Source of the DNA: Candidatus Sulfopaludibacter sp. SbA3
GTDB taxonomy: Bacteria; Acidobacteriota; Terriglobia; Bryobacterales; Bryobacteraceae
Assembly (NCBI GenBank): GCA_945890485.1
Contig: CAMDCN010000006.1
Coordinates: 310,001 to 374,000 of the forward strand
Reading direction: 5' to 3'
Length of the DNA stretch: 64,000 nt
Of this stretch, positions 2,569-63,253 are shown in pieces. The notes under the pieces were generated by a model. It did not search any database and had not been told where the DNA came from. It was given only the letters and a program-made list of their open reading frames with translations. The first letter of the stretch is position 1; every line of letters begins with the position of its first letter. Both the position numbers and the translations under genes were made by a program.

Positions 2569-2585
2569 GCCCTTATCATAGACGC
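2569..2585. promoter_or_regulatory. Putative bidirectional leaderless promoter between phhB and MEMO
   Basis: The whole gap is 17 bases. TATCAT at 2574-2579 sits 6 bases before the plus-strand ATG at 2586. Its near mirror image, TATGAT on the minus strand (2575-2580), sits 6 bases before the minus-strand ATG at 2568. Both are good -10 elements, and at this distance transcription would begin at or next to the start codons. No clear -35 boxes were identified; they would have to lie inside the opposing coding regions. Confidence 0.6.
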
Positions 2586-3686
2586 ATGGGTATACGCCCG
2601 GAAATCGATGGGTTTCCTTCGAACGATCCGCAACAGCCTGGATTGGTGCTGCACGATCCCACCGGCATTGCCACGGCGATGCTGTTGATCCCGCCGGGCC
2701 TGGTTCCTGCGCTGGCGGAAGATCCTCTGCCGCCGGAGTTGGCCGAGGCTCTCAGCCTGGCCGGATTTCTCGACGATGATAACTTCGCCCGGATGTTTGA
2801 GGCCTTTGCCCGCGCGGAGACGTTGCCGGCCCGTCATGGCGGACTAGGGAACTATCCGACTGAGGGGGTCGCGCTACGGCAGCTTTTCGATACCTGGTTT
2901 GCCGAGCCGGGTGCGGCGCGTCCGCTGCATGCCATCGCCTCGCCGCACGCGAGCCCGGAGCCGGCGCGCGGGTCGTATGTGAGCGCCTATACGGCCCTGG
3001 CAGCCAGCCTTACCAAAGCCGAGGCTGCCGAGAAGACCTTCGTCGTGCTCGGGACCTCCCACCAAGGGGCGCGAGACCGGTTCGGCATGACGAGAAAGCG
3101 CTTTGCCACGCCGGTGGGAGAGAGCCGGGTACGGGTTCCAGAAAAGCTGGCGGCATTGGCGATGATGGAGGATCCTTGCTTCGCCGTTGAGCACTCCATC
3201 GAGTTCCAGGTGGTGTTTCTCCAGTATCTTTACGGGCCGGATATCGAGATTGTGCCGATATTGTGTGGCCCGCTCACATCGCCGGGGCATCCGTTTCTGC
3301 AGGAGTTGGGCGAATGGTCGGCGAAGGAGGGAGACCGGCTGCGCTGGGTGCTTGGCGTCGATATGGCGCATAAGGGTCCTCGCTACGGTGACCGCGAGGC
3401 GCGGCGGGCGTATACGGACTCGATGGCGGAAATTGAAGTGCGGGACAGGGGGCGGATAGCCTCGCTCGCGGCGGGCGACCAGGAGGCCTTCTGGGCACAG
3501 GTTCGGGAGCGAAACGACGATTTGAACTGGTGCGGCACCGCCCCTTTCTATTCCTACCTTGCTGCGCATCCGGGGATGCACGGCGAGCTATTGACGTACG
3601 AACACTGGCAGATCGATCCGCGGAGCGTCGTGACGTTCGCCGGGATGACCTTTGAAAAAGGTACGGGGAAGAGCCTAGAACCCTGA
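2586..3686 (+). CDS. MEMO1 family protein (AmmeMemoRadiSam system protein B-like)
   Basis: A 366-residue protein. The C-terminal two thirds match the MEMO family, related to class III extradiol dioxygenases: SPHASPEP replaces the usual SPHAGY, followed by LGTSH, EHSIEFQ and VDMAHKG, which supply the putative His/Asp metal ligands. The first 80 or so residues resemble the N-terminal extension of bacterial MEMO proteins (HDPTGIA, LLIPPG), which supports the early start. The biochemical role of bacterial MEMO is unsettled. Partner genes of the AmmeMemoRadiSam set (an AMMECR1 protein and a radical SAM enzyme) are not in the window. Confidence 0.85.
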   Translation: MGIRPEIDGFPSNDPQQPGLVLHDPTGIATAMLLIPPGLVPALAEDPLPPELAEALSLAGFLDDDNFARMFEAFARAETLPARHGGLGNYPTEGVALRQLFDTWFAEPGAARPLHAIASPHASPEPARGSYVSAYTALAASLTKAEAAEKTFVVLGTSHQGARDRFGMTRKRFATPVGESRVRVPEKLAALAMMEDPCFAVEHSIEFQVVFLQYLYGPDIEIVPILCGPLTSPGHPFLQELGEWSAKEGDRLRWVLGVDMAHKGPRYGDREARRAYTDSMAEIEVRDRGRIASLAAGDQEAFWAQVRERNDDLNWCGTAPFYSYLAAHPGMHGELLTYEHWQIDPRSVVTFAGMTFEKGTGKSLEP

Positions 3687-3702
3687 GTACTCGGGTTCCA
3701 TA

Positions 3703-3760
3703 GGTCGGTAAGCGTCCGGGAAATACCTTAGGGTTATCCCAATGTTGAAGCGAACCGACC
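3703..3760 (+). repeat. Seven-base inverted repeat in the leader of the 72-residue membrane protein
   Basis: GGTCGGT at 3703-3709 is complementary to ACCGACC at 3754-3760, which ends one base before the ATG at 3762. If transcribed, pairing would close a loop of about 44 bases and bury the ribosome-binding region of the small membrane protein. This may be chance; no known riboswitch is recognised here. Confidence 0.3.
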
Positions 3761-3761
3761 G

Positions 3762-3980
3762 ATGCGTAATCCTTTGGCTGTAGGTATTTGGCTGCTCCGC
3801 TTTTGTGCCGCGATACTGGCCGCCATCTGGCTGTACCAGGATGGCGCCTTAGCGGCATCGACCTCTTTCGAGACTGTTCATGAAGCCGTGGATCAACTGT
3901 CCGCGGGTTCGTTTTTCCTGTTGGCGGGCGTTCTGCTGGTGGGCCTGGGAATGAAAGGCCGCCGTTCGCGTGCTGACTAA
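3762..3980 (+). CDS. Small two-helix membrane protein of unknown function
   Basis: A 72-residue protein with two hydrophobic segments, about residues 8-32 and 50-66, separated by a short polar loop with ETVHEAVDQLSAG, and ending in a basic tail (MKGRRSRAD). The positive tail predicts a cytoplasmic C-terminus. No family is recognised. It follows the MEMO gene by 75 bases. Its stop shares four bases (CTAA) with the stop of the convergent gene. There is no clear Shine-Dalgarno box before the ATG. Confidence 0.6.
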   Translation: MRNPLAVGIWLLRFCAAILAAIWLYQDGALAASTSFETVHEAVDQLSAGSFFLLAGVLLVGLGMKGRRSRAD

Positions 3981-5158: not shown

Positions 5159-6924
5159 TAGGCTTCTTGGTATTGCAGTTGATAGAGCTTCCAGTACAGG
5201 CCCCGTTGCTGGATGAGTTCGGCGTGGGTGCCGGCCTCGCGGAGTTGGCCCTTGTGGAAAGCAAAGATGCGGTCGGCGTTCTGGATAGTGGAGAGGCGAT
5301 GGGCGATGGAGATAGAAGTTCTTCCGGTAAGGAGCTTCTTCTGAGCGTCGCGAATGCGTAACTCCGTATCAGTCTCGACGCTGGAAGTGGCCTCATCGAG
5401 TATAAGAATTTTGGGTTCGTGAACGAGAGCGCGAGCGAAGCTGACAAGCTGCTTCTGGCCGGTGGAGAGGTTGGCGCCTCGTTCGAGGATGGGTTCTGCG
5501 AAGCGGCCGGGGAGCCGGTCGATGAAATCGAGCAGATTGACCTCGGCGGCGGCGGCGGTGAGCCGGGCTTCGTCGATCCCCGCGCCACCGAGACTGATGT
5601 TGGAGCCTACGGTGCCGGTGAACAGGTAGGGGTCTTGGAGGACGATGGCGAAGCGGCGGCGGAGTTCGAGAGGGTCGAACTCGCGAATGTCGATGCCGCC
5701 GATTTTGATGGCGCCGCGCTGGACGTCGTAAAAGCGGAGGAGGAGATTGGTGACGGTAGTTTTGCCTGCGCCGGTGTGGCCGACGATGGCGATGGCTTCT
5801 CCGGGGGCGATGGAGAAGCTGACGTCGCGGAGGACCCAATCTTCGGCCGCATAGGCGAACCAGACATTTTCAAACGTGATGGTGAGGTCGTCCGGAACCG
5901 GTTTCGGATCAGCCGGGGCGGCGATGGCGGCGGGGGTATCGAGAAGTTGGAAGATGCGTTCGCTGGCGGCGGTGGCCGACTGGAGAATGTTGTATTTCTC
6001 GCTCAGGTCTTGGATGGGCCGGAAGAAGCGGAGGGCGAACTGGAAGAAGGCGATGAGGACGCCAAGCGAAAGGCCGCCGCCAGGCACCTGCCAGCCTCCG
6101 TAAACGAGGATGCCGGCGAAGGCCAGCATGCTGAGGAATTCGACGACCGGGTAGAACCAGCCATAGGCGAAGACGCTCTGCTTGAAGGCGAGCATGTGCT
6201 CCCGGTTGATTTCGGCGAACTCGTCGCGGGCGGCTTGCTCCCGGTTGAAAGCCTGCAGGACTGCGATGCCATTGATGTGCTCGTTGAGGAAGGCGTTGAT
6301 GCGGGCGACGGCGAGGCGAATGCGGCGGTAACTGGCGGAGACCTGGGAGCGGAAGAGCATGGTGGCCCAGTAGATGGCCGGGGTGACGATGAGGATCAAC
6401 GCTGTGAGGCCGGGGCTCATCCAGAGCAGGACGCCAAGCAGCCAGGTGAGCATGATGGCGTCGCCGAGGATGGCCACCAGGCCGGAACTGAAGAGTTCGT
6501 TGAGGGTATCGACGTCGCCAGTGACGCGGGTGACGAGGCGGCCGACGGGGTGCTTGTCGAAGTAGGCGATATCGAGCTGATGCAGCTTAGCCATCAGGTC
6601 GCGGCGGAGGGCGAACATCGCCTGTTGGCCGGTCCATTGCATGAGCAGCGCCTGGCCGAACTCCGCGAGCAACATAAGCACGGAGACGCCGAGCATAATT
6701 AGGGAGAGTTGGGCGATGCCGTCCCAAGCGCCGGGAGCGCGCTGGACCAGGTAACGGTCGACAGCGATGCTGGTGAGGATGGGCCCGACGGATTCGAGCA
6801 GGGAATGGACTGTGAGCAATCCGACGGTGGCAGCCACCTGTTTCCGGTACGGTTTCAGATAAACCGCGAGCCGGCGCAGCAACTGACTGTCATAAAGCTT
6901 GCCCTGAACCTGCTCTTGTTCCAC
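5158..6924 (-). CDS. ABC exporter, fused membrane and ATPase domains (MsbA/LmrA-like half-transporter)
   Basis: About 588 residues from a GTG start at 6924. An N-terminal six-helix exporter domain covers about residues 20-310, followed by a nucleotide-binding domain with Walker A GHTGAGKTT, signature LSTGQKQ and Walker B ILILDEAT. It would work as a homodimer, exporting lipids or hydrophobic compounds; the substrate cannot be read from sequence. The frame is open upstream to 7137, but those residues run antisense through truB and do not look like the family. The N-terminal sequence EQEQVQGKLYD matches how related exporters begin. TAGACT lies 7 bases before the GTG, so the mRNA may be leaderless. 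Confidence 0.92.
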   Translation of the reverse strand: MEQEQVQGKLYDSQLLRRLAVYLKPYRKQVAATVGLLTVHSLLESVGPILTSIAVDRYLVQRAPGAWDGIAQLSLIMLGVSVLMLLAEFGQALLMQWTGQQAMFALRRDLMAKLHQLDIAYFDKHPVGRLVTRVTGDVDTLNELFSSGLVAILGDAIMLTWLLGVLLWMSPGLTALILIVTPAIYWATMLFRSQVSASYRRIRLAVARINAFLNEHINGIAVLQAFNREQAARDEFAEINREHMLAFKQSVFAYGWFYPVVEFLSMLAFAGILVYGGWQVPGGGLSLGVLIAFFQFALRFFRPIQDLSEKYNILQSATAASERIFQLLDTPAAIAAPADPKPVPDDLTITFENVWFAYAAEDWVLRDVSFSIAPGEAIAIVGHTGAGKTTVTNLLLRFYDVQRGAIKIGGIDIREFDPLELRRRFAIVLQDPYLFTGTVGSNISLGGAGIDEARLTAAAAEVNLLDFIDRLPGRFAEPILERGANLSTGQKQLVSFARALVHEPKILILDEATSSVETDTELRIRDAQKKLLTGRTSISIAHRLSTIQNADRIFAFHKGQLREAGTHAELIQQRGLYWKLYQLQYQEA

Positions 6925-6931
6925 CCTTACC

Positions 6932-6939
6932 AGTCTACT
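6932..6939. promoter_or_regulatory. Overlapping -10 elements for the ABC exporter and truB
   Basis: The minus-strand TAGACT (6932-6937) lies 7 bases before the GTG of the exporter. The plus-strand TCTACT (6934-6939) overlaps it and would give truB a leader of about 13 bases containing GGAAG. The same AGTCTA core recurs in the divergent gap at 27723-27730. Confidence 0.5.
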
Positions 6940-7849: not shown

Positions 7850-7855
7850 TATCTT
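7850..7855 (+). promoter_or_regulatory. TATCTT -10-like element before the lipoprotein gene
   Basis: The hexamer lies exactly 6 bases before the ATG at 7862, matching the leaderless arrangement seen elsewhere in the window. The intervening CAGGGC could also be read as a weak, badly spaced ribosome site. Confidence 0.45.
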
Positions 7856-16692: not shown

Positions 16693-16698
16693 AATCTA
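16693..16698 (-). promoter_or_regulatory. TAGATT -10-like element before valS
   Basis: The hexamer lies 5 bases before the valS ATG at 16687 in the 50-base gap to serS. It would drive the operon running through glmU as a leaderless transcript. Confidence 0.45.
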
Positions 16699-16725: not shown

Positions 16726-16731
16726 TAGCAT
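16726..16731 (+). promoter_or_regulatory. TAGCAT -10-like element before serS
   Basis: It lies 6 bases before a GTG at 16738 but abuts the ATG at 16732. The spacing therefore favours the GTG as the true, leaderless start of serS. Confidence 0.4.
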
Positions 16732-19133: not shown

Positions 19134-19798
19134 AGGACGCCGTATTTGGCAAAAACGTCGCGGAGGTAGGCGCCTTTCTGTAACTCGGCGCGGGAGTTGT
19201 TCTCGCGGCGCACCTTGTCGCTGGCGATGCTGAGCACCTCTTCCACGATGGCGGACGGGACGACGATGATGCCGTCATGATCGCCGAACACAAAGTCGCC
19301 GGGATTCACGATGACTTCGCCGCATTCGACGGGCACGTTGTAAGCCGTCACGACGCCGCGGCCCATCGAGTCGACGGGTTTAATGCCGGCCGCGAAAACG
19401 GGGAACGAGATATCTTCAATTTTGCGAATGTCGCGGACGAGCCCATCGACGACAGCGCCGCGGGCGCCGCGGGCCTTGGAGGCGGTGGAGAGCAGTTCGC
19501 CCCACGGAGCGTTACGGACCGATTTCTGGGTGCCAACGACACAGATCTCGCCGGGCTGAAGGCTATCAATCGCCTCGATCTCGAGTCCGTACGGATCTTC
19601 CGGGATATGGTAAATGTCGGAGCAAGTGACCGTGCGGGCCCAGCCCGCCATCACACAGCCGGGATGCACCGGCCGGAGGTATTCCCTCATCGCCTGATGG
19701 CGTACCCCTAATTGATCTAAGGCATCGGAAACTACTGCCGTGTAGAGTTCCCGCTCGGCCATCTCGGCGAGTTCTATCTGCTTGGCTAGCTCGATCAT
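19130..19798 (-). CDS. RraA/HMG aldolase-like family protein
   Basis: A 222-residue member of the RraA-like family, which includes 4-hydroxy-4-methyl-2-oxoglutarate/oxaloacetate lyases and RNase E regulators. Conserved pieces are VSDALDQLG, APWGELLSTASKARGARGAVVDGLVRD with the metal/pyruvate-binding Arg-Asp, and PGDFVFGDHDGIIVVP. Catalytic use as a class II pyruvate aldolase is more likely than RNase regulation because it is coupled to an enolase-superfamily gene. I place the start at ATG 19798; the frame is open a further seven codons. TAATAT lies 8 bases upstream. Confidence 0.85.
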   Translation of the reverse strand: MIELAKQIELAEMAERELYTAVVSDALDQLGVRHQAMREYLRPVHPGCVMAGWARTVTCSDIYHIPEDPYGLEIEAIDSLQPGEICVVGTQKSVRNAPWGELLSTASKARGARGAVVDGLVRDIRKIEDISFPVFAAGIKPVDSMGRGVVTAYNVPVECGEVIVNPGDFVFGDHDGIIVVPSAIVEEVLSIASDKVRRENNSRAELQKGAYLRDVFAKYGVL

Positions 19799-20782: not shown

Positions 20783-20813
20783 TTACCAGCGTTCGCCAGG
20801 ATTATGGTAAAGT
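20783..20813 (+). promoter_or_regulatory. Possible tRNA-His promoter
   Basis: TTACCA (20783-20788) and TAAAGT (20808-20813) are separated by 19 bases and lie just before the tRNA. An alternative -10, TATGGT at 20803-20808, would have a 14-base spacer. Both are imperfect, so this is tentative. Confidence 0.3.
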
Positions 20814-20826: not shown

Positions 20827-20902
20827 GTGCCCTTAGCTCAGCTGGTAGAGCGTCGGATTGTGGTTCCGAATGTCGCGGGTTCGAACCCCGTAGGGCACCC
20901 CA
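20827..20902 (+). tRNA. tRNA-His (anticodon GTG)
   Basis: A complete cloverleaf. The acceptor stem GTGCCCT (20827-20833) pairs with AGGGCAC (20892-20898), followed by discriminator C and an encoded CCA (20900-20902). The anticodon stem TCGGA/TCCGA encloses TTGTGGT, giving anticodon GTG. The T-arm contains GGTTCGAACCCC. The base before the acceptor stem is G (20826), facing discriminator C73, the extra G-1 that marks tRNA-His. It is the only tRNA seen in the window and lies 50 bases before the kinase gene. Confidence 0.97.
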
Positions 20903-25289: not shown

Positions 25290-27230
25290 TTATCGCCCGG
25301 CGTACACCACTACTGCTGTCGCGCTGTGCGTCAGACCGTTTTGTGCCGTGACGGTCAGCTCGAATCGATACTCGCCCGGCCCGCCAGCGAACTGCACCAC
25401 GACGCGTGATCCACGCTCATTCGTTAGCGCGGCGGGGCGCCCAGTGACCCGCCACTGGTAGCTGACAATCCTGCCGCCCCCCGGAACCACGGACGGGGAA
25501 CCGTCGAGCTCCACCTGGCGATTCAATACGGCGCCGACGGTGGGTTGGATACTGGCGACCGGCCGGTAGATAATTTTCGCGGCCTCTTCGGCAGCCTGTT
25601 GGGGCGATTGTTCGATCAGGTCCGGCTCCGGGTAGACCGCGCCGAAACGCAAAGAGTCGTTTTGGAACGTGTAGACCAGTTTCTTCCAATCGTCGAAGCC
25701 GCGGAGAATTGTGCCGAGGCCTCCGTTCAGGTCGGCCTGTACGAGCCGGTCGCCGTCGCTTCCATTACAGTTCCAGTCGAGCCCGGCGCCATCGACTACG
25801 GGCTCCACTATCGTGCCGGTGACGCAGTTATAGGCAACCGCTGGGGTTTCTGTGCGTTCCTCGATGCTGTTGTTCGGACGGCGCCTTCGAGTCCTGGCTT
25901 GTAGACCGTTGACCGGATAGATGGGCGACCTTTCGTCGAGCGCCGATTCGTTCAGAGTGGGCAGGATCAATCGAGAAAAATCGATGCGGTGAGACATCTC
26001 CTCCGAGTCTGTCCTTACCGCTTCACCAGACTCTCCAACTGTCGAGATCTTTACCTGGTAGGGGACCCCCTCGTACTGATGGCGGTAGTTCATCACGCTC
26101 CGGTAGTTGGGTTTGTTATTGATATCGTCGCCCCCTCCGTGATGCAGGCCGAGGCTGTGGCCCAGTTCATGCATCAAGGTTCCCGCCTCGCCTTGCACGC
26201 TCGGACTCGTCAGGGTGACCATCAGGTCGTCGCCTGGCGTTTCGCTCACTCCTCCACTCTGGTTGTCCGCGCTACCGTACCGATGCCCATAGATCACGTA
26301 TCGAAATACGAATCGACGGGGATTCTTGTCGCCAAAATAGGATAAATTCTTTTTTATGGCCGCGAAGTCCGGCCCGAAGCTAATGACGTCCTGGTGGGGG
26401 ATCTCGTTGCTGACGTCCACATGCAGGGTGATGCCGGTTGATCCGTCGGGATTTTCGACAGGAGCGTTGGCAAAGGCGTCGACGACAGTTTGAACTGCTT
26501 CCGCGGACGGCCTGTGGTCGTGGCTTTGGTCGGGAGCCGTGCCCATATAGTCGATCTCCAGGAAGACGTCTTTGCGTCCGGGCTTCGCTCCCAAGGCCGG
26601 CAGGTCGAGGTCGATCTCGCCGTCGCCGTCGGTGTCGACGCCGAACGTTTCCCAGTCGTCCCACAGGCCGTCCCCATCACTGTCCCGTTCAACGCGGAGG
26701 TATAGAATGCTGTCGTTGAAGTCCTGGTCGCCGTTATTGCGGCTATCCTCCCAACCCAGTTGAATCAAGCTGCCGCGATATCGTTCCGGCCGAATCGGCT
26801 TCTGCAGAAGATGGTCGGCTGAGTCGGAGTTCTTGTTCCGGTTGCTCGACCAGAAATCGTCGCAGACACCGACATGGGTCTTGTCGACGCAAAGGCCGAG
26901 CTCAAAGGACGTGCCGGCAGGAAATGCGTCAATCTGATTCGTCGTGGCCGGATTGCTGTCGAGCGTGACGCGGCAGCCGAAAGCCGAGTGCTTGTCCGTG
27001 ACGAGGGCGATGCCTTGCCCCTTCTGTGGCGAATCGGCCTTGCAGCCGGAGGAGGCAAGCCTAACCGTGCCGCCGCCGGGGTACGTGGCCTGTACGAGGA
27101 ATACCGTGTTGCGATATCCCGCCTCCATGTTGACGAAGTCGATGGAGACCCTCCCCGTTTCTGTGAGCTCGATGTCTTTTCCGGACAGGACTATCGCGGT
27201 CCCAAGAAACAGGAGGCATTTTACGGTCAT
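25290..27230 (-). CDS. Secreted metzincin-type metalloprotease with DUF4114, calcium-binding and PKD regions
   Basis: A 646-residue protein with a short N-terminal signal-like segment. In order: a DUF4114-like module (WEDSRNNGDQDFNDSILYL), calcium loops of the DSDGDGLWDDWE and DTDGDGEID type, a zinc protease core with HELGHSLGLHHGG and Met-turn SVMNY, and a C-terminal PKD/Ig-like domain (VELDGSPSVVPGGG, YQWRVTGRPA). The third zinc ligand and the Met-turn place it among metzincins. It is probably an extracellular calcium-stabilised protease. TAGACT lies 7 bases before the ATG. Confidence 0.85.
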   Translation of the reverse strand: MTVKCLLFLGTAIVLSGKDIELTETGRVSIDFVNMEAGYRNTVFLVQATYPGGGTVRLASSGCKADSPQKGQGIALVTDKHSAFGCRVTLDSNPATTNQIDAFPAGTSFELGLCVDKTHVGVCDDFWSSNRNKNSDSADHLLQKPIRPERYRGSLIQLGWEDSRNNGDQDFNDSILYLRVERDSDGDGLWDDWETFGVDTDGDGEIDLDLPALGAKPGRKDVFLEIDYMGTAPDQSHDHRPSAEAVQTVVDAFANAPVENPDGSTGITLHVDVSNEIPHQDVISFGPDFAAIKKNLSYFGDKNPRRFVFRYVIYGHRYGSADNQSGGVSETPGDDLMVTLTSPSVQGEAGTLMHELGHSLGLHHGGGDDINNKPNYRSVMNYRHQYEGVPYQVKISTVGESGEAVRTDSEEMSHRIDFSRLILPTLNESALDERSPIYPVNGLQARTRRRRPNNSIEERTETPAVAYNCVTGTIVEPVVDGAGLDWNCNGSDGDRLVQADLNGGLGTILRGFDDWKKLVYTFQNDSLRFGAVYPEPDLIEQSPQQAAEEAAKIIYRPVASIQPTVGAVLNRQVELDGSPSVVPGGGRIVSYQWRVTGRPAALTNERGSRVVVQFAGGPGEYRFELTVTAQNGLTHSATAVVVYAGR

Positions 27231-27237: not shown

Positions 27238-27243
27238 AGTCTA
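27238..27243 (-). promoter_or_regulatory. TAGACT -10-like element before the metalloprotease gene
   Basis: The hexamer lies 7 bases before the ATG at 27230, in the 21-base gap after the PCYCGC-type gene. It is identical to the elements before the ABC exporter and the PCYCGC-type gene. Confidence 0.45.
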
Positions 27244-27716: not shown

Positions 27717-27722
27717 AGTTCT

Positions 27723-27730
27723 AGTCTAAT
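27723..27730. promoter_or_regulatory. Overlapping divergent -10 elements, PCYCGC-type gene and cupin gene
   Basis: The minus-strand TAGACT (27723-27728) lies 6 bases before the ATG at 27716. The plus-strand TCTAAT (27725-27730) lies 6 bases before the ATG at 27737. The 20-base gap leaves no room for leaders on either side. Confidence 0.55.
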
Positions 27731-27736: not shown

Positions 27737-28048
27737 ATGATCAATCTGCTGACAGCGCCAGAGTGGAATGGGCGCACGATGGTAAGCCGGACGGTGGCCA
27801 GTGAGCCGGGGTTGAAGGTGGTGGTGCTGCAATTTGCGCCTGGGCACGAGTTGAAAGCCCACACCGCGCCCGCCCCGATCTCGCTGCATTTTCTGGCTGG
27901 AGAGGGGGCTCTGTTGCGGGGCGGGGAATGGTTGCCAGTCGAAGTGGGTTCGTTCTTTGTGCTCCCGGCGGGAGAGGTGCATGGAGTTCGCGCGACCACC
28001 TATATGACGCTGTTGCTGACGCTGGGCGGCCGGGGTCCGGTAGACTGA
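27737..28048 (+). CDS. Small cupin-domain protein
   Basis: A 103-residue single-domain cupin. Motif 1 is FAPGHELKAHTAPAPISLHFL and motif 2 is VLPAGEVHGV; the conserved His residues could bind a metal. It is probably a small sensor or stress protein of the quercetinase-like or ChrR-like kind, but no substrate is indicated. It precedes an export permease by 10 bases and may be cotranscribed with it. Confidence 0.8.
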   Translation: MINLLTAPEWNGRTMVSRTVASEPGLKVVVLQFAPGHELKAHTAPAPISLHFLAGEGALLRGGEWLPVEVGSFFVLPAGEVHGVRATTYMTLLLTLGGRGPVD

Positions 28049-28058: not shown

Positions 28059-28865
28059 ATGGGGCTTCCCGGTACATTGTTTTTGCGCAATCTGTTTGCG
28101 CGCCGTAACCTGCTTTATCAGCTCATTCAACGCGACTTCCGCCAGCGGTATATTGGCTCGGCGGCGGGCTGGTTGTGGGGTTTGGTCCATCCGATTGTGC
28201 AGTTGGCGAGTTGGACGTTCGTCTTTTCCTACTGCATGAAGACGCCGATGCCGCCCGGCGAGGCGACGGAGAACTACACGCTGTTTCTGCTGTGCGGCTA
28301 CCTACCGTGGATGCTGTTTCAAGAGACGGTGCAGCGGAGCGCGAACTCCATCCTCGACCACTCAAACCTCATCACGAAGACTCTGTTCCCGAGCGAGATG
28401 CTCCCGATCTCGGTCTTCTTTTCGTCAATGATGAACCATCTTCTTGCCGTGTTGCTGGCGGTGACGGCGGTGGCCTTCTGGGACGGCCATTTCTATTGGA
28501 CGCTGCTCTTCCTGCCCATATACACCGGGCTGTTGGGGATGCTGGCGATCGGCATCGGCTGGATCTTCGCGAGCCTGCAGGTGTACCTGCGGGACACGGC
28601 GCAAGCCGTGATGGTGATTCTGACGCTCTGGTTCTGGGTGACGCCGATCTTCATTAGCGAAGATCAGGTGCCGGAGGGCGTCCGGTTCCTTTTGCGGGGG
28701 AACCCGCTGTCGCTATTCGTAAAAGCCTACCGGGCCCGGCTGCTCTCTACAGAGCTGCCGAACCTGGATGAGCTGGCCGCGATGGCCTGTTGGAGCGTGG
28801 GTGCCTTCTTCGTGGGCGGCCTGTTCTTCCGCCACTTGAAACGCGGGTTTGCGGACGTGCTTTAG
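28059..28865 (+). CDS. ABC-2 type polysaccharide-export permease (Wzm/TagG/KpsM-like)
   Basis: A 268-residue protein with six predicted membrane helices. The family hallmark follows the N-terminus: LLYQLIQRDFRQRYIGSAAGWLWGLVHP. Later pieces LCGYLPWMLFQETVQRS and PLSLFVKAYR are typical. Wzm-type permeases move O-antigen, teichoic acid or capsule chains with a Wzt-type ATPase. No such ATPase gene lies next to it, which is unusual. A GAGG box lies 8 bases before the ATG. The stop shares four bases (TTAG) with the convergent aminotransferase. Confidence 0.9.
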   Translation: MGLPGTLFLRNLFARRNLLYQLIQRDFRQRYIGSAAGWLWGLVHPIVQLASWTFVFSYCMKTPMPPGEATENYTLFLLCGYLPWMLFQETVQRSANSILDHSNLITKTLFPSEMLPISVFFSSMMNHLLAVLLAVTAVAFWDGHFYWTLLFLPIYTGLLGMLAIGIGWIFASLQVYLRDTAQAVMVILTLWFWVTPIFISEDQVPEGVRFLLRGNPLSLFVKAYRARLLSTELPNLDELAAMACWSVGAFFVGGLFFRHLKRGFADVL

Positions 28866-29974
28866 AGCGCTTCCTTGATGGCGGAGAGCAGCAGGTCGAC
28901 GTGGGCGGACTGCGAGCCTTCGCCCATCAGGCCGATGCGGAACACCTGGCCGGCCAAGGGGCCGAAGCCGCCGAGGATCTCGATGCCGTGCCGCTCCATG
29001 AGTTTTTTGCGGACTTCGAGATCGCTGACGCCGGCGGGGACCTTCGGCGTATGCAGCGCCCACATGCGGTGTTCCGCGGGGACGAGCATTTCAAGGCCCA
29101 TCGCTTCGAGGCCGGCCGTGAGCTTGGCGGCGTTCTGCCGGTGGCGCTCAAAGCGGGCTTCGAGGCCTTCATCGAGGATCAACGCGATGCCCTCGCGCAA
29201 GGCGTAGAACATGGAGATGGGTGCCGTGTGATGGTAGCGGTGGGCGCCATCGTAGTACTCGCTGAGCAGCTTGAGATCGAGATACCAGGTGCGCTGCGGG
29301 CATTTGCGAGCGCGGAGGCGATCCATCGCGCGGGGCGAGCAAGAGATGGGCGAGAGGCCGGGGGGGCAGCTCATACCTTTCTGCGTGCAGCTATAGGCGA
29401 TGTCGATACCGGTCGCGTCGAGGTTGATGGGCATGGTGCCGAGCGAGGTGACGCAGTCGGCGATGGTGAGGGCGTCGATTTCGCGGGCGGCTTTGGTGAT
29501 GGCGTGGCCCGGAGTCGAGACGCCGGTGGAGGTTTCACCGTGAACGAATGCAACCACCTGCGGCTTCTCGCGATGGATCGCTTCGGAGACTTCGGCGTCG
29601 GTAAACGTCTGGCCCCAGGGCTTTTCGATGCGGACGACCTGGGCTTCCTGGCGGTTGCCCATTTCGGTGAGGCGGTCGCAGAAGAAACCGTTGGCGAAGA
29701 TCAGGAACTTCGAGCCGGGTTCGACGAAGTTGGTGACAGCGGCTTCCATACCCGCGCTGCCGGTGCCGGAAAGGGCGAGCGTGAAGGGGTTCTGAGTGCC
29801 GAAAACGTGTTGAAGGCCCGCGCGGATCTCTTCGTTGACTTGGAAGAAGAATGGGTCCAGGTGACCAACGACAGGTTTTGCCATTGCCTCATACACGCGA
29901 GGTGCCACCATGGACGGACCAGGTCCAAACAATAAGCGCTTTGGCGGAGATAACGGAGCAAGTGTATAAGACAT
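28862..29974 (-). CDS. Class V PLP-dependent aminotransferase (alanine-glyoxylate/serine-pyruvate type)
   Basis: A protein of about 370 residues. LLFGPGPSMVAPRV at the N-terminus, the SGTGSAGMEA loop and HGETSTGV fit the alanine-glyoxylate/serine-glyoxylate group, and the PLP lysine is in CTQKGMSCPPG. It should move an amino group from Ala or Ser to glyoxylate in photorespiration-like or serine metabolism. The ATG at 29974 is preferred to the longer frame because the family begins around PPKRLLFGPGP. TATCCT lies 6 bases before it. Confidence 0.92.
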   Translation of the reverse strand: MSYTLAPLSPPKRLLFGPGPSMVAPRVYEAMAKPVVGHLDPFFFQVNEEIRAGLQHVFGTQNPFTLALSGTGSAGMEAAVTNFVEPGSKFLIFANGFFCDRLTEMGNRQEAQVVRIEKPWGQTFTDAEVSEAIHREKPQVVAFVHGETSTGVSTPGHAITKAAREIDALTIADCVTSLGTMPINLDATGIDIAYSCTQKGMSCPPGLSPISCSPRAMDRLRARKCPQRTWYLDLKLLSEYYDGAHRYHHTAPISMFYALREGIALILDEGLEARFERHRQNAAKLTAGLEAMGLEMLVPAEHRMWALHTPKVPAGVSDLEVRKKLMERHGIEILGGFGPLAGQVFRIGLMGEGSQSAHVDLLLSAIKEAL

Positions 29975-29979: not shown

Positions 29980-29986
29980 TAGGATA
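29980..29986. promoter_or_regulatory. Bidirectional leaderless promoter, aminotransferase and hrpB
   Basis: The plus-strand TAGGAT (29980-29985) lies 6 bases before the hrpB TTG at 29992. The minus-strand TATCCT (29981-29986) lies 6 bases before the aminotransferase ATG at 29974. Gap size, spacer length and one-base offset are identical to those at 2569-2585. Confidence 0.6.
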
Positions 29987-29991: not shown

Positions 29992-32313
29992 TTGAGACTT
30001 CCGATTGACAGTCTGCTGCCGGAGATCGTGGCATCGCTCGAAAAGACGCCCAATCTGGTGATTGAAGCGCCACCGGGGGCGGGGAAGACGACGCGGGTTC
30101 CCGCGGCGTTGCTGGCCGCAGGGATGGGCGAGGTACTGGTGCTGGAGCCGCGGCGGCTGGCGGCCCGGTTGGCGGCCCGGCGGGTGGCCGCGGAGCTCGG
30201 CGAAAAGCTCGGCGAAAAGCTCGGCGAGACGGTGGGTTACCAGGTTCGTTTTGAGGACGTGAGCGGGCCGCGGACGCGGTTGCGGTTCCTAACGGAGGGG
30301 GTGCTGACGCGGCGCCTGCTCAGCGATGCCACGCTGCGCGGCGTGCAGGTGGTGGTGCTCGACGAGTTCCACGAGCGGCACTTGGATGGGGATCTGGCGT
30401 TGGCGTTATTACTGGACCTGCAGCGGCGGAAGCGGCCGGATTTGCGGTTGGTCGTGATGTCGGCGACGTTGGACGCAGCGCCGATTGCGGCGCATCTGGG
30501 CGGCTGCCCGGTGTTGACGAGCGCGGGGAAGTTATTTCCGATGGAGGTGGAGTACACGCCGCATTCGGGGGCAACGCTGGAGCAGTTGGTGGCCGGGGGC
30601 GTCGAGCGGTTGGCGAAGAAGGGGCTGACGGGAGACGTGCTGGTGTTTCTGCCGGGGATCGCGGAGATGCGGCGGGCGCAGCGGCTGTTGGCTTCGTTTC
30701 GTACTTTTCTATTGCACGGGGATATGACGCCCGAGGAACAGGACCAGGCGCTGGCGGAACGAAACGAACCCAAGGTGATTCTGGCGACCAACGTAGCCGA
30801 AAGTTCGATCACGATTCCGGGCGTGACGGCGGTGGTGGATAGCGGCTTGGCGCGGGTGGCGGTGGATTCGCCATGGACGGGGATGCCGTCGATTGAAGTG
30901 GCCAGGGTGAGCCAGGCGTCGGCCACGCAGCGGGCGGGGCGGAGCGCGCGAACGGCGCCGGGGCGGGTGATCCGGTTGTACTCGCAGGAGGAGTTCGTGC
31001 GGCGTCCGGCGCAGGACGCGCCGGAGATTACGCGGCGGGAGTTGTCGCAGTTGCTTGTGAATCTGCATGGCTGCGGGGTTAAGGATGCGCTGGCGTTACC
31101 GTGGCTGACGCCGCCTCCGGGGCCGGCGATTGCGGCGGCGGAGACGCTGCTGGGGCGGTTGGGCATCGTCGAGAACGGAGTGTTGACTCAATTGGGGGCA
31201 AAGATTTCCCAGTTGCCGGTGCATCCGCGGTTGGGCCGGTTGATTGTGGATGGCGGTGAGGACGGATGCCGTGCCGCGGCGGTGCTGTCGAACGGCGACC
31301 GGTTGGAGGGCAAGCCTCCGCATCTGGTGGATTCGGACCTGTTTTTGCTTTTGGAAAGGCCTTGGGGGCCGCAGACGATCCGGACCTATGAACAGTTGCG
31401 GAGGGCGGCGCGGCCACAGCGGAAGGACGACCACGCGTTGCTGTTGGCGCTGACCGCGGCGTTCAGCGACCGATTGGGGAAGCGTCGCCCGAATGGTGAG
31501 ATTCTTTTGGTCGCCGGAGGGCAGGCGGCGCTGGCGGAGAGTTCCGGGGTGCGGCAGGCGGAGCTGGTGGTGGCGATTGAAATGGAGAACCGGGGGACGC
31601 CGCTGATTCGCCTCGCCAGTAAGGTGGAGCCGGAGTGGCTCCTGGATCTGTTTCCCGAGCGGATGGATAGCCGGGATGGCGTGGAATGGAACCGGACCGC
31701 CGAACGGGTAGAACGGGTGAGTGCGCTGCTCTTTGACGGGATGGTGATTGAGGAGACGCGCAGTGGGGGACCGGACGCGGAGCAGGCGGCGGAGCTATTG
31801 GCGGCAAAGGCGCTCGAGGCCGGGATTGAGCGGTTCGCCGATGTATCGGGCTTGATGGCCCGTTGGCGCTTTGCTGGGGTGCCGGAGCCGGATTTGAAAC
31901 GGGCGATTGCGGGAGCTTGCTACGGGCTGCGGAGTTTCGCTGAGCTGAAGGGGCTGCTGGGAGACGGCGGACTGGAGCGGATTCTGCTGGACGGCATGAC
32001 GGACCGGGCCGTGCTGGAGGCAAAAGCGCCGGAGCGGGTGAAGTTGGCCAAAGGCCGCTCCGTGGCTGTCCACTATGTGGACGGGCAGCCGCCTTGGGTG
32101 GCCTCGCGCCTGCAGGATTTCTTCGGCATGAGGCAAACACCGCGGGCGGGGCAGACGCCGGTCGTTGTGCATTTGCTGGCCCCGAACCAGCGCCCGGTGC
32201 AAGTTACGCAGGACCTGGCTGGTTTCTGGGAGCGGCACTACCCTTCGTTGCGGAGGGAGCTGGGCCGGAGATATCCACGGCACTCGTGGCCGGAAGATCC
32301 TCTCGAAGAGTGA
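29992..32313 (+). CDS. hrpB: ATP-dependent RNA helicase HrpB
   Basis: A 773-residue DExH helicase. Motif I is APPGAGKTTRVP, motif II DEFH within VVLDEFHERHLDGD, motif III MSATLD, motif VI QRAGRSAR. The HrpB-specific C-terminal domain (EDPLEE ending) is complete. It starts at TTG 29992, supported by TAGGAT 6 bases upstream. Near residues 69-79 there is an in-frame repeat, GEKLGEKLGE, from a 12-base unit duplicated at 30196-30219. The cellular role of HrpB is poorly known. The last 110 bases overlap the convergent glycosyltransferase-like gene. Confidence 0.95.
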   Translation: MRLPIDSLLPEIVASLEKTPNLVIEAPPGAGKTTRVPAALLAAGMGEVLVLEPRRLAARLAARRVAAELGEKLGEKLGETVGYQVRFEDVSGPRTRLRFLTEGVLTRRLLSDATLRGVQVVVLDEFHERHLDGDLALALLLDLQRRKRPDLRLVVMSATLDAAPIAAHLGGCPVLTSAGKLFPMEVEYTPHSGATLEQLVAGGVERLAKKGLTGDVLVFLPGIAEMRRAQRLLASFRTFLLHGDMTPEEQDQALAERNEPKVILATNVAESSITIPGVTAVVDSGLARVAVDSPWTGMPSIEVARVSQASATQRAGRSARTAPGRVIRLYSQEEFVRRPAQDAPEITRRELSQLLVNLHGCGVKDALALPWLTPPPGPAIAAAETLLGRLGIVENGVLTQLGAKISQLPVHPRLGRLIVDGGEDGCRAAAVLSNGDRLEGKPPHLVDSDLFLLLERPWGPQTIRTYEQLRRAARPQRKDDHALLLALTAAFSDRLGKRRPNGEILLVAGGQAALAESSGVRQAELVVAIEMENRGTPLIRLASKVEPEWLLDLFPERMDSRDGVEWNRTAERVERVSALLFDGMVIEETRSGGPDAEQAAELLAAKALEAGIERFADVSGLMARWRFAGVPEPDLKRAIAGACYGLRSFAELKGLLGDGGLERILLDGMTDRAVLEAKAPERVKLAKGRSVAVHYVDGQPPWVASRLQDFFGMRQTPRAGQTPVVVHLLAPNQRPVQVTQDLAGFWERHYPSLRRELGRRYPRHSWPEDPLEE
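30196..30227 (+). repeat. 12-base in-frame tandem repeat inside hrpB
   Basis: The unit CTCGGCGAAAAG occurs at 30196-30207 and 30208-30219, with a partial third copy to 30227. It encodes LGEK twice. The alignable E. coli segment is four residues shorter here, which is consistent with one extra unit gained by slippage. Confidence 0.75.
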
Positions 32314-33901: not shown

Positions 33902-33962
33902 TCGTCCTACCGGTCTATCGGCCATTTTCACGAACTGGTTTATGGCAAAATCAGGAGCAACA

Positions 33963-46784: not shown

Positions 46785-47813
46785 CTAGGGTACTTTCTGC
46801 GCGGCGAGGCGGATGTTTTGCTTGGTGGCGTTGTTCGTGAGGACGAGTTGGCCGTTCTCGTGGCGGACGTCGTCGACCTGATCGAAGCCGGGCGGTACGG
46901 CGGCGTAGAACATGACGAACTTGGCGGAGATCTTCGATTTGGCAGGGAGCCAGCGATAGGTGGGGACGTCGAAGAGTTTGCCTTCGCTGATGGCCTGGCG
47001 GCGGGAGACATCGAAGGGTTGGGTGCCGAATTCGAGGCCGCGGGAGAGTTCTCCGGAGGCGGGATAGTTGTGCCATTCCTGCAGCCAGGGGTAGTCGGCG
47101 CGGGGGAAGTAGTAGCCGAAGACGAGGCGCTTCTCCAGGTGAATGGCGGTGACGAAGCCGTGGGTGCGATTGGGGTCGATGGTGCAGCCGGTGTGGTCGA
47201 GGGAGTTGGCACCGGCGGGGACGGCGCGGAGGTTGCGGGTGCCTCCGGCGTTGAGGGGGACGTTGGGATAAGTGAACTCGACGCCGGCGTTGAGGGTGGA
47301 CTTGGGGCCGCCTTTTTCATCGGGGCGGGTGAGGCAGCGGCCGACCGAGGCGTCGACGACGGTTTTGCCGTGCGTCAGGAACGGCGCGCCGATGGTGGCG
47401 TGTTCGGCCCAGTTGATGGGCCGGTCGAAGCCGAGTTCATTTTCGAGGGTGGTTTCGACCGTGATGACCTGTTCGCCGGGGAGGAGTTTGATGCGGCGGG
47501 TGACCTTCTCCTGGACGATGGGGAGGCGGGTTTCGAAGACGCCGGGGGCGGTTTCGGTCCAGGATTGGCGGACAGCTTCGCCGTGGCCGGGGAGTCCGGC
47601 GGCTTGCTCTTCATTCGATGTGGGGCCGAAGCCATCGACGCAGAGGAAGTGGCCCATGTAGTTGCCGCTGCCCTTCCACATGGGGTTCGTTTCGTCTTTG
47701 TCGGCGAGGAGGCGGAGCTTGGTGAAGGCCCCTCCTGGATTCTGGACGGAAAGTTCGAGCTTATCGTTCTTGATCAGGGTGAGGTCGGCGAAGAGGAGGA
47801 GGAGCGCGAGCAT
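46785..47813 (-). CDS. Secreted aldose-epimerase-like (galactose mutarotase fold) protein
   Basis: A 342-residue protein with a short signal sequence. ELSVQNPGGAFTKLRLL near the N-terminus, NWAEHATIGAPFL with a conserved His, and FGYYFPRADYPWLQEW fit the galactose mutarotase-like beta-sandwich superfamily, the group with many uncharacterised sugar-binding proteins. Catalytic His/Glu residues cannot be assigned safely. TAGAAT lies 5 bases before the ATG at 47813. Confidence 0.7.
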   Translation of the reverse strand: MLALLLLFADLTLIKNDKLELSVQNPGGAFTKLRLLADKDETNPMWKGSGNYMGHFLCVDGFGPTSNEEQAAGLPGHGEAVRQSWTETAPGVFETRLPIVQEKVTRRIKLLPGEQVITVETTLENELGFDRPINWAEHATIGAPFLTHGKTVVDASVGRCLTRPDEKGGPKSTLNAGVEFTYPNVPLNAGGTRNLRAVPAGANSLDHTGCTIDPNRTHGFVTAIHLEKRLVFGYYFPRADYPWLQEWHNYPASGELSRGLEFGTQPFDVSRRQAISEGKLFDVPTYRWLPAKSKISAKFVMFYAAVPPGFDQVDDVRHENGQLVLTNNATKQNIRLAAQKVP

Positions 47814-47818: not shown

Positions 47819-47824
47819 ATTCTA
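47819..47824 (-). promoter_or_regulatory. TAGAAT -10-like element before the mutarotase-like gene
   Basis: It lies 5 bases before the ATG at 47813 in the 26-base gap to the divergent gene. The plus-strand CAGAAT at 47828-47833 is 6 bases before the ATG at 47840 and may serve the other gene. Confidence 0.4.
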
Positions 47825-49747: not shown

Positions 49748-49753
49748 TAGAAT
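49748..49753 (+). promoter_or_regulatory. TAGAAT -10-like element before acs
   Basis: The hexamer matches the -10 consensus at five of six positions and lies 7 bases before the acs ATG at 49761. Confidence 0.5.
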
Positions 49754-51887: not shown

Positions 51888-51940
51888 CGGTTCTCGCCTT
51901 TTCGTTCTCCCCACTTTTCAATTCACAGGAGTAAGTTCCC

Positions 51941-56200: not shown

Positions 56201-56818
56201 GCCTACATGTGTGTGTACGGCATGGAGGGACCGGGCGGCTACCAGTTTGTGGGCCGGACGATCCAGATGTGGAACACGTACAAGAGCACGGAGGCGTTCG
56301 AAGCGGGCAAGCCTTGGCTGCTGCGCGGGTTCGACCAGATTCGGTTCTTCCCGGTGGGCGCGGACGAGTTATTGGAGTACCGGAAGGAGTTCCCGCTGGG
56401 GCGGTATCCGGTGAAGATTGAGCCGACCACGTACCGGTTGGCGCCTCCTCCGCCGGGAGCGGCGGAGTTTAAGGCCAAGCAGCAGGCGGCGTTTGAAGCC
56501 GAGCGCGAGCGGTGGGGAAAGAACGCTTCGGTGGCCGAGGTGTTTGAAGAGGCGCCGCCCGTGCCGGAACTGGACGTGCCGCCGGGTTGCCGCGCGCTGC
56601 GGGCACCGACGACGGCGAGCGTGTGGAGCGTGGAGATCGCCGTGGGGCAGATGGTGACCGAAGGGGGCCGGCTGGTGATCCTGGAGGCGATGAAGATGGA
56701 GGTGGCGGTCTGTTCGCCGGTGAATGGATTGGTTCGGCAGGTGTTGGTTGCCCAGGGCGGCGTGGTGCAGGCCGGGCAGGCGTTGTTGATTGTGGAGGAG
56801 GCGCCCGATGCTGAATGA
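53291..56818 (+). CDS. Urea/guanidine carboxylase (biotin-dependent)
   Basis: A 1175-residue multidomain enzyme. Residues about 1-450 are biotin carboxylase, with the glycine-rich ATP loop ([11 protein letters not shown]) and [10 protein letters not shown]. Residues about 465-1080 are the carboxyltransferase made of AHS2- and AHS1-type halves, including [13 protein letters not shown] and [14 protein letters not shown]. The C-terminus is a biotin carrier with EAMKMEV and biotin-acceptor Lys1135. It carboxylates urea or guanidine using ATP and bicarbonate. The two deiminase-type neighbours make guanidine the more likely substrate. BirA (12467-13189) should attach the biotin. Confidence 0.94.
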
Positions 56819-59350: not shown

Positions 59351-59356
59351 GCCCCA

Positions 59357-59362
59357 ATTTTA
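59357..59362 (-). promoter_or_regulatory. TAAAAT -10-like element before the phzF-family gene
   Basis: The hexamer is five of six matches to the -10 consensus and 6 bases from the ATG at 59350. It partly overlaps the 19-base gap after the gene at 59370-59708. Confidence 0.45.
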
Positions 59363-59369
59363 CGCTGCG

Positions 59370-59708: not shown

Positions 59709-59720
59709 CAATGAAATTTT

Positions 59721-59858: not shown

Positions 59859-59927
59859 GACTGGCTAATCGACTCAGAACTTAGGAACATTAGCCTCTAA
59901 GCGATGACGCCTAGTACTAGAATCGGC

Positions 59928-59933
59928 TATGAT
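59928..59933 (+). promoter_or_regulatory. TATGAT -10-like element before the small secreted protein gene
   Basis: It is 6 bases before the ATG at 59940, with the same spacing as at 2569-2585. Confidence 0.5.
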
Positions 59934-59939
59934 TCAGGC

Positions 59940-61621: not shown

Positions 61622-62025
61622 CCGATGGTTCCCAGGTAGCTGTTGAGGATGAGTTCCGCGGCCATGCGGTCGACGGTGCCGCGCTTGCCTTTGGCTCGAC
61701 CGGACTCGGCGAGATAGCGGCCCGCTTCCTTCGACGACATGCGTTCGTCCCACATCAGGAAGGGGACGCCGGATTCTTCAGAGAGTCGAGCGGCGAAGGC
61801 GCGGGCCTCGCGGGATAGCTCGCTTTCTTCACCGCTCATGTGGAGGGGATTGCCGATGACTATTTGGCCGACTTGTTGGTCATGAATGAGGTTTCTGAGG
61901 GTCAACATGTCGGTGCGGATATTGACGCGGTGGAGGGTGTCCTGGCCGTGCGCCATGATGCCGAGGGGATCGCTGAGGGCGATTCCGATTCGGCGGCGGC
62001 CATAGTCGAGAGCCAAGATGCGCAT
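61618..62025 (-). CDS. ruvX: Holliday junction resolvase-like protein RuvX/YqgF
   Basis: A 135-residue protein with an RNase H-like fold: LALDYGRRRIGIALSD, VIGNPLHMSGEES, WDERMSSKEAGRYL, and DRMAAELILNSYL carry the acidic active-site residues. In bacteria it acts in 16S rRNA 5' end maturation and perhaps in recombination. It is translationally coupled to mltG. TAACAT lies 4 bases before its ATG, a less good fit to the leaderless pattern. Confidence 0.95.
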   Translation of the reverse strand: MRILALDYGRRRIGIALSDPLGIMAHGQDTLHRVNIRTDMLTLRNLIHDQQVGQIVIGNPLHMSGEESELSREARAFAARLSEESGVPFLMWDERMSSKEAGRYLAESGRAKGKRGTVDRMAAELILNSYLGTIG

Positions 62026-62062
62026 CTACATGTTAGATTAACGGATATTCGGGGTTTCCCTG

Positions 62063-63241
62063 TTGGCCATTCAAGATCCCTCCACGTTACCGATTGTTAG
62101 GGTGCGCAACACGGGCAGTGTGTTGTTCACGTTGGGGGTGGTGTGCGCCCTGTTGTACTTGGGGCGGCTGTTTTTAGTGACGTTGCTGGTGGGAATTTTC
62201 ATCTCGTTTATTCTTGATCCGCTGGTGCGGATGTTCATGCGACTGCGGTTGCCGCGAGGATTTGCGAGCTTCCTGGTCTGCAGTTTGGCCCTCTTGATGC
62301 TGTACCTTGGGGCGTTATTGACGTTGTCCCAAGCCCAGGGATTGTGGGATGAGTTACCGAGCTATACGAAACGGGTGAACGATCTCAGCGATAAGGTTTT
62401 GATCGAAGTAGAGTCCGCGGAGAAGACCATCAACGACATGATGGCGCCGAAACGGGTGCGCGAGATGGAAGCACAGCGGTTGGAGCAGGAGCGGCAGTTG
62501 GCTGAGCAGCAGAAGCAGAGGCGGCGGCGAACCACGGATCCGCCGATGGCGCCACTATTGCCGCTCGCGGTGCAGGAGGTGCGAATTCGTCCGGAACGGT
62601 CGCCGCTGGTGGAGTACCTGTACTCGAACTGGCAGCAGTTTTACGACATCGCACTGATGGTGTCGTTTGTGCCGTTTCTGGTCTATTTCATGCTGGCTTG
62701 GCGGGACCACTTCGTCTACAATTTCCTGCGCGTGTTTCGGGGGGAGTCGCGGGCGATAGCGTCATCGACGATTGACGGGATTGCCCGCATGACGCGGGCG
62801 TATGTGGTGGGGAACTTCTTGCTGGGCGTGGTGTTGGCGCTGGTCAGCACAGGATTCTTTTGGATGGTGAAGGTGCCGTATTGGTTGCTGGTAGGGCCGC
62901 TCAGCGGTTTCCTGTCGCTGGTGCCATACATCGGACTGCCTTTGGCGATTCTACCGCCCGTGTTTGCGGCGTTAACTGTCTACGACAATTTGACGGCCTA
63001 TGTCGTGATTGGCACGACGGTGGCGTTCTTTCATCTGATGGCGTTGAACCTCTTGTATCCGAAGTTGGTAGGGTCGCGGGTCCATTTGAATCCGCTTGTC
63101 GTGACCGTTGCCTTGATGTTCTGGGGATTCCTGTGGGGCGGGATCGGGTTGGTGTTGGCGATTCCGCTGACGGCGGCTTTGAAAGCTGTCTGCGATCACT
63201 ATCCCGGGTTGTCGGCTTACGGCAAGTTGATGGGGGATTGA
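62063..63241 (+). CDS. AI-2E family transporter/permease
   Basis: A 392-residue membrane protein with about seven or eight helices. The family fits (YLGRLFLVTLLVGIFISFILDPLVR near the N-terminus, and GPLSGFLSLVPYIGLPLAILPPVFAAL later). Residues about 125-170 form a charged, Glu/Gln/Arg-rich loop. Members have been linked to export of AI-2 or to sodium/proton exchange; the substrate here is unknown. It starts at TTG 62063, 37 bases from divergent ruvX. Confidence 0.88.
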   Translation: MAIQDPSTLPIVRVRNTGSVLFTLGVVCALLYLGRLFLVTLLVGIFISFILDPLVRMFMRLRLPRGFASFLVCSLALLMLYLGALLTLSQAQGLWDELPSYTKRVNDLSDKVLIEVESAEKTINDMMAPKRVREMEAQRLEQERQLAEQQKQRRRRTTDPPMAPLLPLAVQEVRIRPERSPLVEYLYSNWQQFYDIALMVSFVPFLVYFMLAWRDHFVYNFLRVFRGESRAIASSTIDGIARMTRAYVVGNFLLGVVLALVSTGFFWMVKVPYWLLVGPLSGFLSLVPYIGLPLAILPPVFAALTVYDNLTAYVVIGTTVAFFHLMALNLLYPKLVGSRVHLNPLVVTVALMFWGFLWGGIGLVLAIPLTAALKAVCDHYPGLSAYGKLMGD

Positions 63242-63247
63242 TTGAGA

Positions 63248-63253
63248 TAAACT
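63248..63253 (+). promoter_or_regulatory. TAAACT -10-like element before the last gene
   Basis: The hexamer lies 7 bases before the ATG at 63261, partly over the end of the AI-2E gene. Confidence 0.4.

Follow-up and report, generated by a model that had tools for sequence, protein, structure and literature searches.

Start Codons and TANNNT Boxes in the Window

The stretch of DNA analysed here, called the window, comprises 64,000 nucleotides (nt) of the acidobacterium Candidatus Sulfopaludibacter sp. SbA3 (contig CAMDCN010000006.1, positions 310,001 to 374,000, or C6:310001-374000 of a 35-contig genome), and the subject of this report is the hexamer TANNNT, which stands a few nt ahead of many of its start codons and resembles the -10 element of a promoter. 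A preliminary description claimed this hexamer 5–7 bases before at least fifteen starts, and a literal scan located it 5–7 nt ahead of the start codon in all 15 genes. Most of these genes and boxes are given below in window coordinates, the spacing being the distance from the end of the hexamer to the start codon, and the boxes lying between divergent start codons follow where those are treated.

2275..2568, minus strand: phhB (pterin-4a-carbinolamine dehydratase; Pfam PF01329, E 3.5e-31), ATG at 2568, TANNNT at spacing 6
2586..3686, plus strand: MEMO-like gene (Pfam PF01875, E 2.1e-23), ATG at 2586, TANNNT at spacing 6
6932..6937, minus strand: TAGACT before the ABC exporter GTG at 6924, spacing 7
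7850..7855, plus strand: TATCTT before ATG 7862, spacing 6
16693..16698, minus strand: TAGATT before valS ATG 16687, spacing 5, weak case
16726..16731, plus strand: TAGCAT before serS GTG 16738, spacing 6
27238..27243, minus strand: TAGACT before ATG 27230, spacing 7
28862..29974, minus strand: class V aminotransferase (Pfam PF00266), ATG at 29974 (the gene caller chose 29911)
29992..32313, plus strand: hrpB helicase (Pfam HrpB_C, E 6.2e-36), TTG start
47819..47824, minus strand: TAGAAT before ATG 47813, spacing 5, weak case
49748..49753, plus strand: TAGAAT before acs ATG 49761, spacing 7
59357..59362, minus strand: TAAAAT before phzF ATG 59350, spacing 6
59928..59933, plus strand: TATGAT before ATG 59940, spacing 6
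63248..63253, plus strand: TAAACT before the TIM-barrel gene ATG 63261, spacing 7

Genes were called by a 3-periodic Markov model that makes no use of upstream signals and that gave 54 genes in the window and 1641 in a sample of 2.064 Mb of the 7.126-Mb genome. Among the 54 called window genes 13 carry the box at spacing 5–7, where about 1.2–1.7 would be expected from a per-position background of 0.74–1.04%, and 15 carry it at spacing 6–9. Twelve of the 13 hits belong to the genes named in the preliminary description, the thirteenth being an RraA-like gene at 19798 (minus strand); the gene at 63261 runs past the window end and hence was not called. For serS, the aminotransferase, and the gene at 33963 the caller did not pick the better start. 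In 79/79 listed serS relatives the position of 16738 is occupied by ATG or GTG (one further locus lacked its 5' end), and the aminotransferase start 29974 is kept in relatives, which makes both of them better starts than those of the caller. The weakest cases are valS and the gene at 47813, because spacing 5 is near the genomic background. The gene at 27230, which by its position corresponds to the "metalloprotease" of the preliminary description, was given PKD and DUF4114 domains by Pfam and no protease.

Three genes with a Shine-Dalgarno (SD) motif serve as contrast cases:

33953..33957, plus strand: SD motif AGGAG before ATG 33963
51927..51931, plus strand: SD motif AGGAG before ATG 51941
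56794..56801, plus strand: SD motif GGAGGAGG before ATG 56808

The first of these had been placed at 33963; the AGGAG is present, and 33963 is the ATG.

Spacing of the Box across the Genome

Spacing statistics were obtained on 1638 genes of the 2.064-Mb sample, with 100 dinucleotide-preserving shuffles as the control. The genome-wide peak which the preliminary description had proposed to look for was found: the strict hexamer ends 6–9 nt before the start in 232 of the 1638 genes, compared with 58.1±7.4 in the shuffles (maximum 85 among the 100). The claim of a box near the start stands, while its range is corrected from 5–7 to 6–9, since spacing 5 (1.3% of genes vs 0.74%) lies near background and the onset is abrupt at spacing 6, with 6.1% of all genes (background 0.74%) and 8.9% of divergent genes (background 1.04%), followed by decay to about spacing 11. 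In a caller-independent test the hexamer stood at spacing 6 before 3.81% of the 3597 candidate starts that lie close to a gene start vs 0.27% of 17535 internal in-frame candidates. The strict excess amounts to about 10.6% when all genes are counted and to 16% for the divergent ones, and the weight-matrix excess at spacing 6–11 to 20.7% of divergent genes. The best reading of this signal is that roughly a tenth or more of the genes would be transcribed without a leader or nearly so. In Escherichia coli, used as a control, no peak at spacing 6–9 was observed among 89 genes.

The signal was also counted by gene context. The box at 6–9 was found in 110/528 divergent genes (shuffle 24.9±4.2), in 29/150 co-directional genes with a gap of 16–40 nt (6.3), in 16/151 with a gap of 41–100 nt (5.4), and in 67/604 with a gap of at most 15 nt or an overlap (15.4±4.4). 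A concentration of TA-led genes among operon-first genes would fit the divergent and 16–40-nt classes, yet the most tightly coupled class still holds its 67 and the class with gaps above 100 nt shows 10/205 vs 6.0±2.4, no clear excess in this sample. The preliminary description had assigned SD motifs instead of the box to genes within operons; a tendency of this kind exists, but a strict division does not, given the 67 tightly coupled genes which carry TANNNT at 6–9.

Three other attempts gave nothing usable. An expectation-maximization estimate of the leaderless fraction was unstable, drifting to 0.86 in close co-directional genes, and its value of 0.54 for divergent genes was also not relied on. 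The raw genome count of TANNNTN{5,7}ATG vs its reverse (2269 vs 2148) was too blunt, and a 50-kb plasmid stretch of Deinococcus radiodurans (MP1), intended as positive control, was too small with 26 genes.

Stop Codons as Part of the Next Box

In co-directional genes the stop codon of the upstream gene may be built into the box of the next one. At gaps of 9–12 nt the stop would contribute its TA to a box at spacing 6–9, and there TAA/TAG stops show T at +5 in 29/58 cases vs 46/234 at the other gaps from 3 to 40 nt (p 7.5e-6); for TGA stops the counts, 4/9 vs 14/62, are too few to judge. At gaps of 4–7 nt the T of the stop could be the terminal T of the box (11/88 vs 15/303, p 0.025), and since this is carried almost wholly by gap 4 (8/21), such use of the stop's T is only suggestive.

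The same junctions give rise to another explanation, namely that the whole signal is a by-product of TAA/TAG stop codons and base composition upstream of the starts, and indeed the upstream stop supplies the TA of the hexamer in 29 of the 67 box hits at gaps of at most 15 nt. The counts are not reproduced by dinucleotide shuffles, however, and among TAA/TAG stops alone there is still an excess of T at +5 at gaps 9–12, while the largest number of hits comes from divergent genes, which have no upstream stop there. Because the spacing-6 peak is present in divergent genes, stop codons and composition fail as the main explanation of the signal, and this possibility can be considered negligible.

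Among 1110 co-directional neighbours of the genome sample the 4-nt overlap is the commonest junction (185 pairs), and the 9-nt gap forms a local maximum (27), which is in part due to TAA/TAG stops forming the TA of the next box.

Nature of the Box

In tRNA genes TANNNT was found 5–18 nt before the mature 5' end in 17/19 cases vs 5/19 when a region of equal width further upstream was scanned, and the window itself contains one example:

20803..20813, plus strand: TATGGTAAAGT, two overlapping TANNNT before tRNA-His (20827-20902), a box at an untranslated gene

In aligned boxes a G is present two bases before the box (position -14) in 52% of 166, whereas control boxes have it in 36% of 485. Of the three bases in the middle of the box, the second and third are A or C and rarely T.

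These observations bear on the suggestion that TANNNT acts in translation, as an AT-rich ribosome-binding motif other than SD or as an S1 site, in mRNAs with ordinary leaders. The motif does adjoin start codons, and signals of this kind are discussed for other phyla in the available portions of two papers (PMC9581028, PMC5397173). A ribosome-binding motif would hardly be expected at the tRNAs, which are untranslated and yet carry the same hexamer, and the G at -14 together with the rigid T-A-T positions resembles a -10 element. Moreover, divergent starts 15–30 bp apart exclude leaders unless both promoters sit inside the opposite genes. A role in translation instead of transcription is accordingly rated as very unlikely.

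The presence of the box at tRNA genes marks it as a promoter element. It is highly likely that TANNNT is here an ordinary sigma-70-type -10 element, which in a sizeable minority of genes lies 6 (up to about 11) nt before the start codon and would give a leaderless or nearly leaderless mRNA. By the usual promoter geometry for a -10 six nt upstream, RNA polymerase would start at the start codon or a few bases from it, the mRNA would be translated without SD pairing, and regulatory DNA would become so compact that one box may serve twice, either for a divergent pair or as a stop codon joined to the next gene's box. The placing of +1 at the start codon, and with it where the transcripts end and how they are translated, is deduced from this geometry; the many leaderless mRNAs proposed in the preliminary description are in this sense well supported by the sequence, leaderlessness itself being an expected consequence.

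The Box in Related Genomes

The serS of the window is 93% identical to that of a metagenome-assembled genome (MAG) labelled Acidobacteriaceae and 73% to that of a Paludibaculum MAG, and Bryobacterales or Bryobacteraceae is the label on many of the matches that follow, as befits a Bryobacterales-like acidobacterium. In relatives of serS (79 loci, one of 80, L027, being dropped) TANNNT was present at spacing 5–12 in 54/79, with the mode at 8–9, an SD motif in 6/79, and neither in 19/79. Spacing was also compared by group in 79 of the 80 loci, L041 belonging to neither group, and among L043-L080 the 37 loci from outside Bryobacterales show the box peak at 8–9 and not at 6, as would result from a leader of 2–3 nt or from another distance between -10 and +1.

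For phhB 27 loci were used, the own one included (three of 30, L214, L227, and L228, were dropped), and the box was observed in 15/27, SD in 6/27, and neither in 6/27. Where the upstream gene ends at most 3 nt off or overlaps (n=6) there are no boxes and 4 SD motifs, while the other 21 loci have 15 boxes and 2 SD motifs (Fisher p 0.003). One and the same gene thus tends to have an SD motif in front where it is tightly coupled and a putative -10 element otherwise.

The sister genomes, whose scoring the preliminary description had proposed, were represented by 100 kb from each of 8 relatives. A clear spacing-6 peak was found in three: G004 of the genus (13.8% of 58 genes), G344 of the family (8.2% of 61 genes), and G214 of another acidobacterial family, f23 (13.6% of 66 genes). 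The peak of f23 is very sharp; it comes from this one genome (tiles L259-L263).

Several points weigh against the leaderless reading of the box. The spacing-6 peak is weak or absent in the other five relatives (G008, G349, G136, G050, and G221; 0–4.3% of 47–66 genes), and the TA-led habit is not uniform across the phylum. The mode of 8–9 in the serS relatives allows a leader of 2–3 nt rather than none. No -35 element was seen in the aligned boxes, which lack TTG enrichment near -23, where it would be expected 16–18 nt upstream. Where co-directional neighbours lie more than 100 nt apart there is no clear excess, as reported above. An SD motif was found in 0/232 TA genes, but this exclusion is partly forced, as the SD and TA windows overlap. 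Finally, the starts are noisy, and errors of the caller dilute the counts. As to the lack of -35, extended -10 promoters are able to work without it.

Possibly Shared Boxes between Divergent Start Codons

Divergent genes begin close to one another, 41 of the 264 divergent pairs in the genome sample having starts less than 40 bp apart. A box on both sides was observed in 0/11 pairs below 15 bp, 7/21 at 15–30, 6/32 at 31–60, 1/79 at 61–120, 0/48 at 121–200, and 1/73 above 200 bp, or, pooled, in 13/53 at 15–60 bp vs 2/200 above 60 bp. Three putative elements of this kind lie in the window, none of them assigned to a strand:

2574..2580: candidate shared symmetric -10 TATCATA between phhB and the MEMO-like gene, CAT-N5-TANNNTA-N5-ATG, starts 18 bp apart
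29980..29986: candidate shared symmetric -10 TAGGATA between the aminotransferase and hrpB, CAT-N5-TANNNTA-N5-TTG, starts 18 bp apart
27722..27728: candidate shared element TAGTCTA between the PCYCGC gene at 27716 (minus strand) and the cupin gene at 27737 (plus strand), starts 21 bp apart; Pfam PCYCGC and Cupin_2

Apart from the first two, no pair of called genes in the 2.064 Mb has an exact N5/N5 site between them, and so the arrangement is rare. In E. coli the same caller gave 0/19 divergent pairs less than 40 bp apart, and the RefSeq table has bioH/yhgH at 38 bp; close divergent pairs there are rare, not absent.

The 18-bp site, CAT-N5-TANNNTA-N5-ATG, was counted with the reversed pattern in the same genomes as control. 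In 19 genus genomes 59 sites vs 6 were found, the 59 forming 26 distinct clusters, and in 21 genomes of family f23 the count was 33 vs 4. Other genera of the family gave 88 vs 65 in 117 genomes (p 0.075), other families 121 vs 79 in 199 genomes (p 0.004), and family f2 6 vs 22 in 25 genomes. When one of the two starts is TTG, the genus has 63 vs 30 (p 0.0008). In the own genome 14 vs 7 sites were found when N4–6 was allowed on both sides, N5/N5 accounting for 6 vs 0; 5 of the 14 have credible genes on both sides, and Pfam backs both genes at 3 own sites, phhB/MEMO, phosphotriesterase/PQQ protein (18 bp), and S15 peptidase/aminotransferase (17 bp). Any single genome thus has few such pairs, and in most of the other groups the arrangement is weak or missing.

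Conservation was followed at both exact sites. At the phhB start the 18-bp site is exact in 5/15 genus genomes with a phhB match (own, G004, G366, G373, and G375) and also in G013 of another genus. At the hrpB start it is kept in 8/8 genus genomes (own included) with an hrpB identity of 90% or more, where the two start codons are constant while flanking bases changed, and it was found in 0/8 genus genomes with hrpB 67–71% identical. From the upstream stop to the N terminus hrpB offers no start codon but TTG, and the TAG of TAGGATA doubles as the stop closing the hrpB frame upstream. This TTG, kept in 8 genomes, falls directly on the predicted transcript start, and a leaderless UUG would be unusual, leaderless initiation being described mostly with AUG or GUG.

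Another explanation was considered as well, in which most of these sites would be palindromes that arose by chance or promoters working in one direction. Credible genes on both sides at only 5 of the 14 own sites speak for this, as do the small excess outside the genus, the deficit in f2, and the lack of the site at the more distant hrpB orthologs. The genus excess spread over 26 clusters, the excess with TTG on one side, the preservation of the hrpB/aminotransferase site with both starts despite flank changes, and the shifted spacing N7–8, which is not enriched (own genome 4 vs 7), are difficult to reconcile with it, and chance or one-sidedness is judged an unlikely explanation for most of the sites.

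The shared-promoter reading is rated somewhat more likely than not: in the genus and in family f23 near-zero leaders would be so usual that divergent genes share one 7-bp symmetric -10 element with start codons exactly 18 bp apart, both mRNAs beginning with the start codon (for hrpB a conserved UUG), and that in co-directional genes the upstream stop is built into the next -10 element.

A prediction of N7–8 shared sites in family f2 failed, with 39 vs 66 control in 25 genomes; it rested on a presumed likeness of f2 to the 37 non-Bryobacterales serS loci with their apparent 8–9 peak. A 23-bp arrangement is weak in the genus (28 vs 15). Among the shared sites, one whose own length is 23 bp and which adjoins a DegT-type aminotransferase gene (G000 C5:437022-437044, L109) has identical letters in 9/19 genus genomes; the remaining shared sites are less conserved, which hints at a further constraint on this one.

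Relation to Known Systems

The preliminary description was not aware of such an arrangement in this lineage, whereas TA-led genes were reported for 3/3 Acidobacteria genomes already in 2011, with a mean of 13.3% (9.7–19.4), in Table 2 of Zheng et al. (PMC3160421). Both marks of TA-led genes in that study, a TANNNT peak with its first T about 12 nt upstream and an excess over dinucleotide shuffles, were found here, and the excess of about 10.6% lies within its range. The genome and genus differ, and in the portions of that paper available neither shared divergent sites nor a stop/-10 fusion were found: its main text has no occurrence of "divergent" or "stop codon", though another count gave one "divergent transcription".

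In Deinococcus-Thermus TANNNT adjoins about 30% of the open reading frames, and mutation tests there showed it to work as a -10 element (2025, PMC12340547, as far as its available text goes). The likeness lies in the hexamer a few bases from the reading frame; the phylum is another one, and function was tested there and is deduced here. A domain-wide motif scan in the same paper may include Acidobacteriota.

For E. coli, bidirectional promoters with a symmetric shared -10 element were described whose divergent transcript starts are most often 18 bp apart, 10 and 23 bp being also common (PMC12825309, available parts). The symmetric -10 and the 18-bp geometry recur here at the level of start codons; the difference is that the 18 bp separate the start codons here, by which both mRNAs would be leaderless. 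The word "leaderless" does not occur in the main text of that paper. No description of the shared-box arrangement was found in the accessible open-licence literature on leaderless transcription with divergent or bidirectional promoters or upstream stops, which is weak evidence of absence, and no transcript-start map for Acidobacteriota was found in the open-licence literature consulted.

The -10 element at the start codon is thus of a kind already known for the phylum, and what deserves to be followed up is the shared bidirectional box together with the stop/-10 fusion. Soils commonly contain Acidobacteriota. A -10 element at the start codon affects start annotation, the caller having been wrong for serS and the aminotransferase, and predicts SD-independent initiation for many genes. 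If the shared-box reading is true, the spacing of head-to-head start codons in DNA alone would report promoter symmetry and leaderless transcription, and bidirectional leaderless promoters could be sought by screening genomes. Together with the stop/-10 fusions, the shared 18-bp sites would make a sequence-only test for leaderless or bidirectional transcription that is usable on other genomes, and they provide a few well-defined loci to test.

As a minor observation, the plus strand of the window is markedly G-rich (36.1% G, 26.2% C) with genes on both strands, which perhaps reflects a replication-strand bias.

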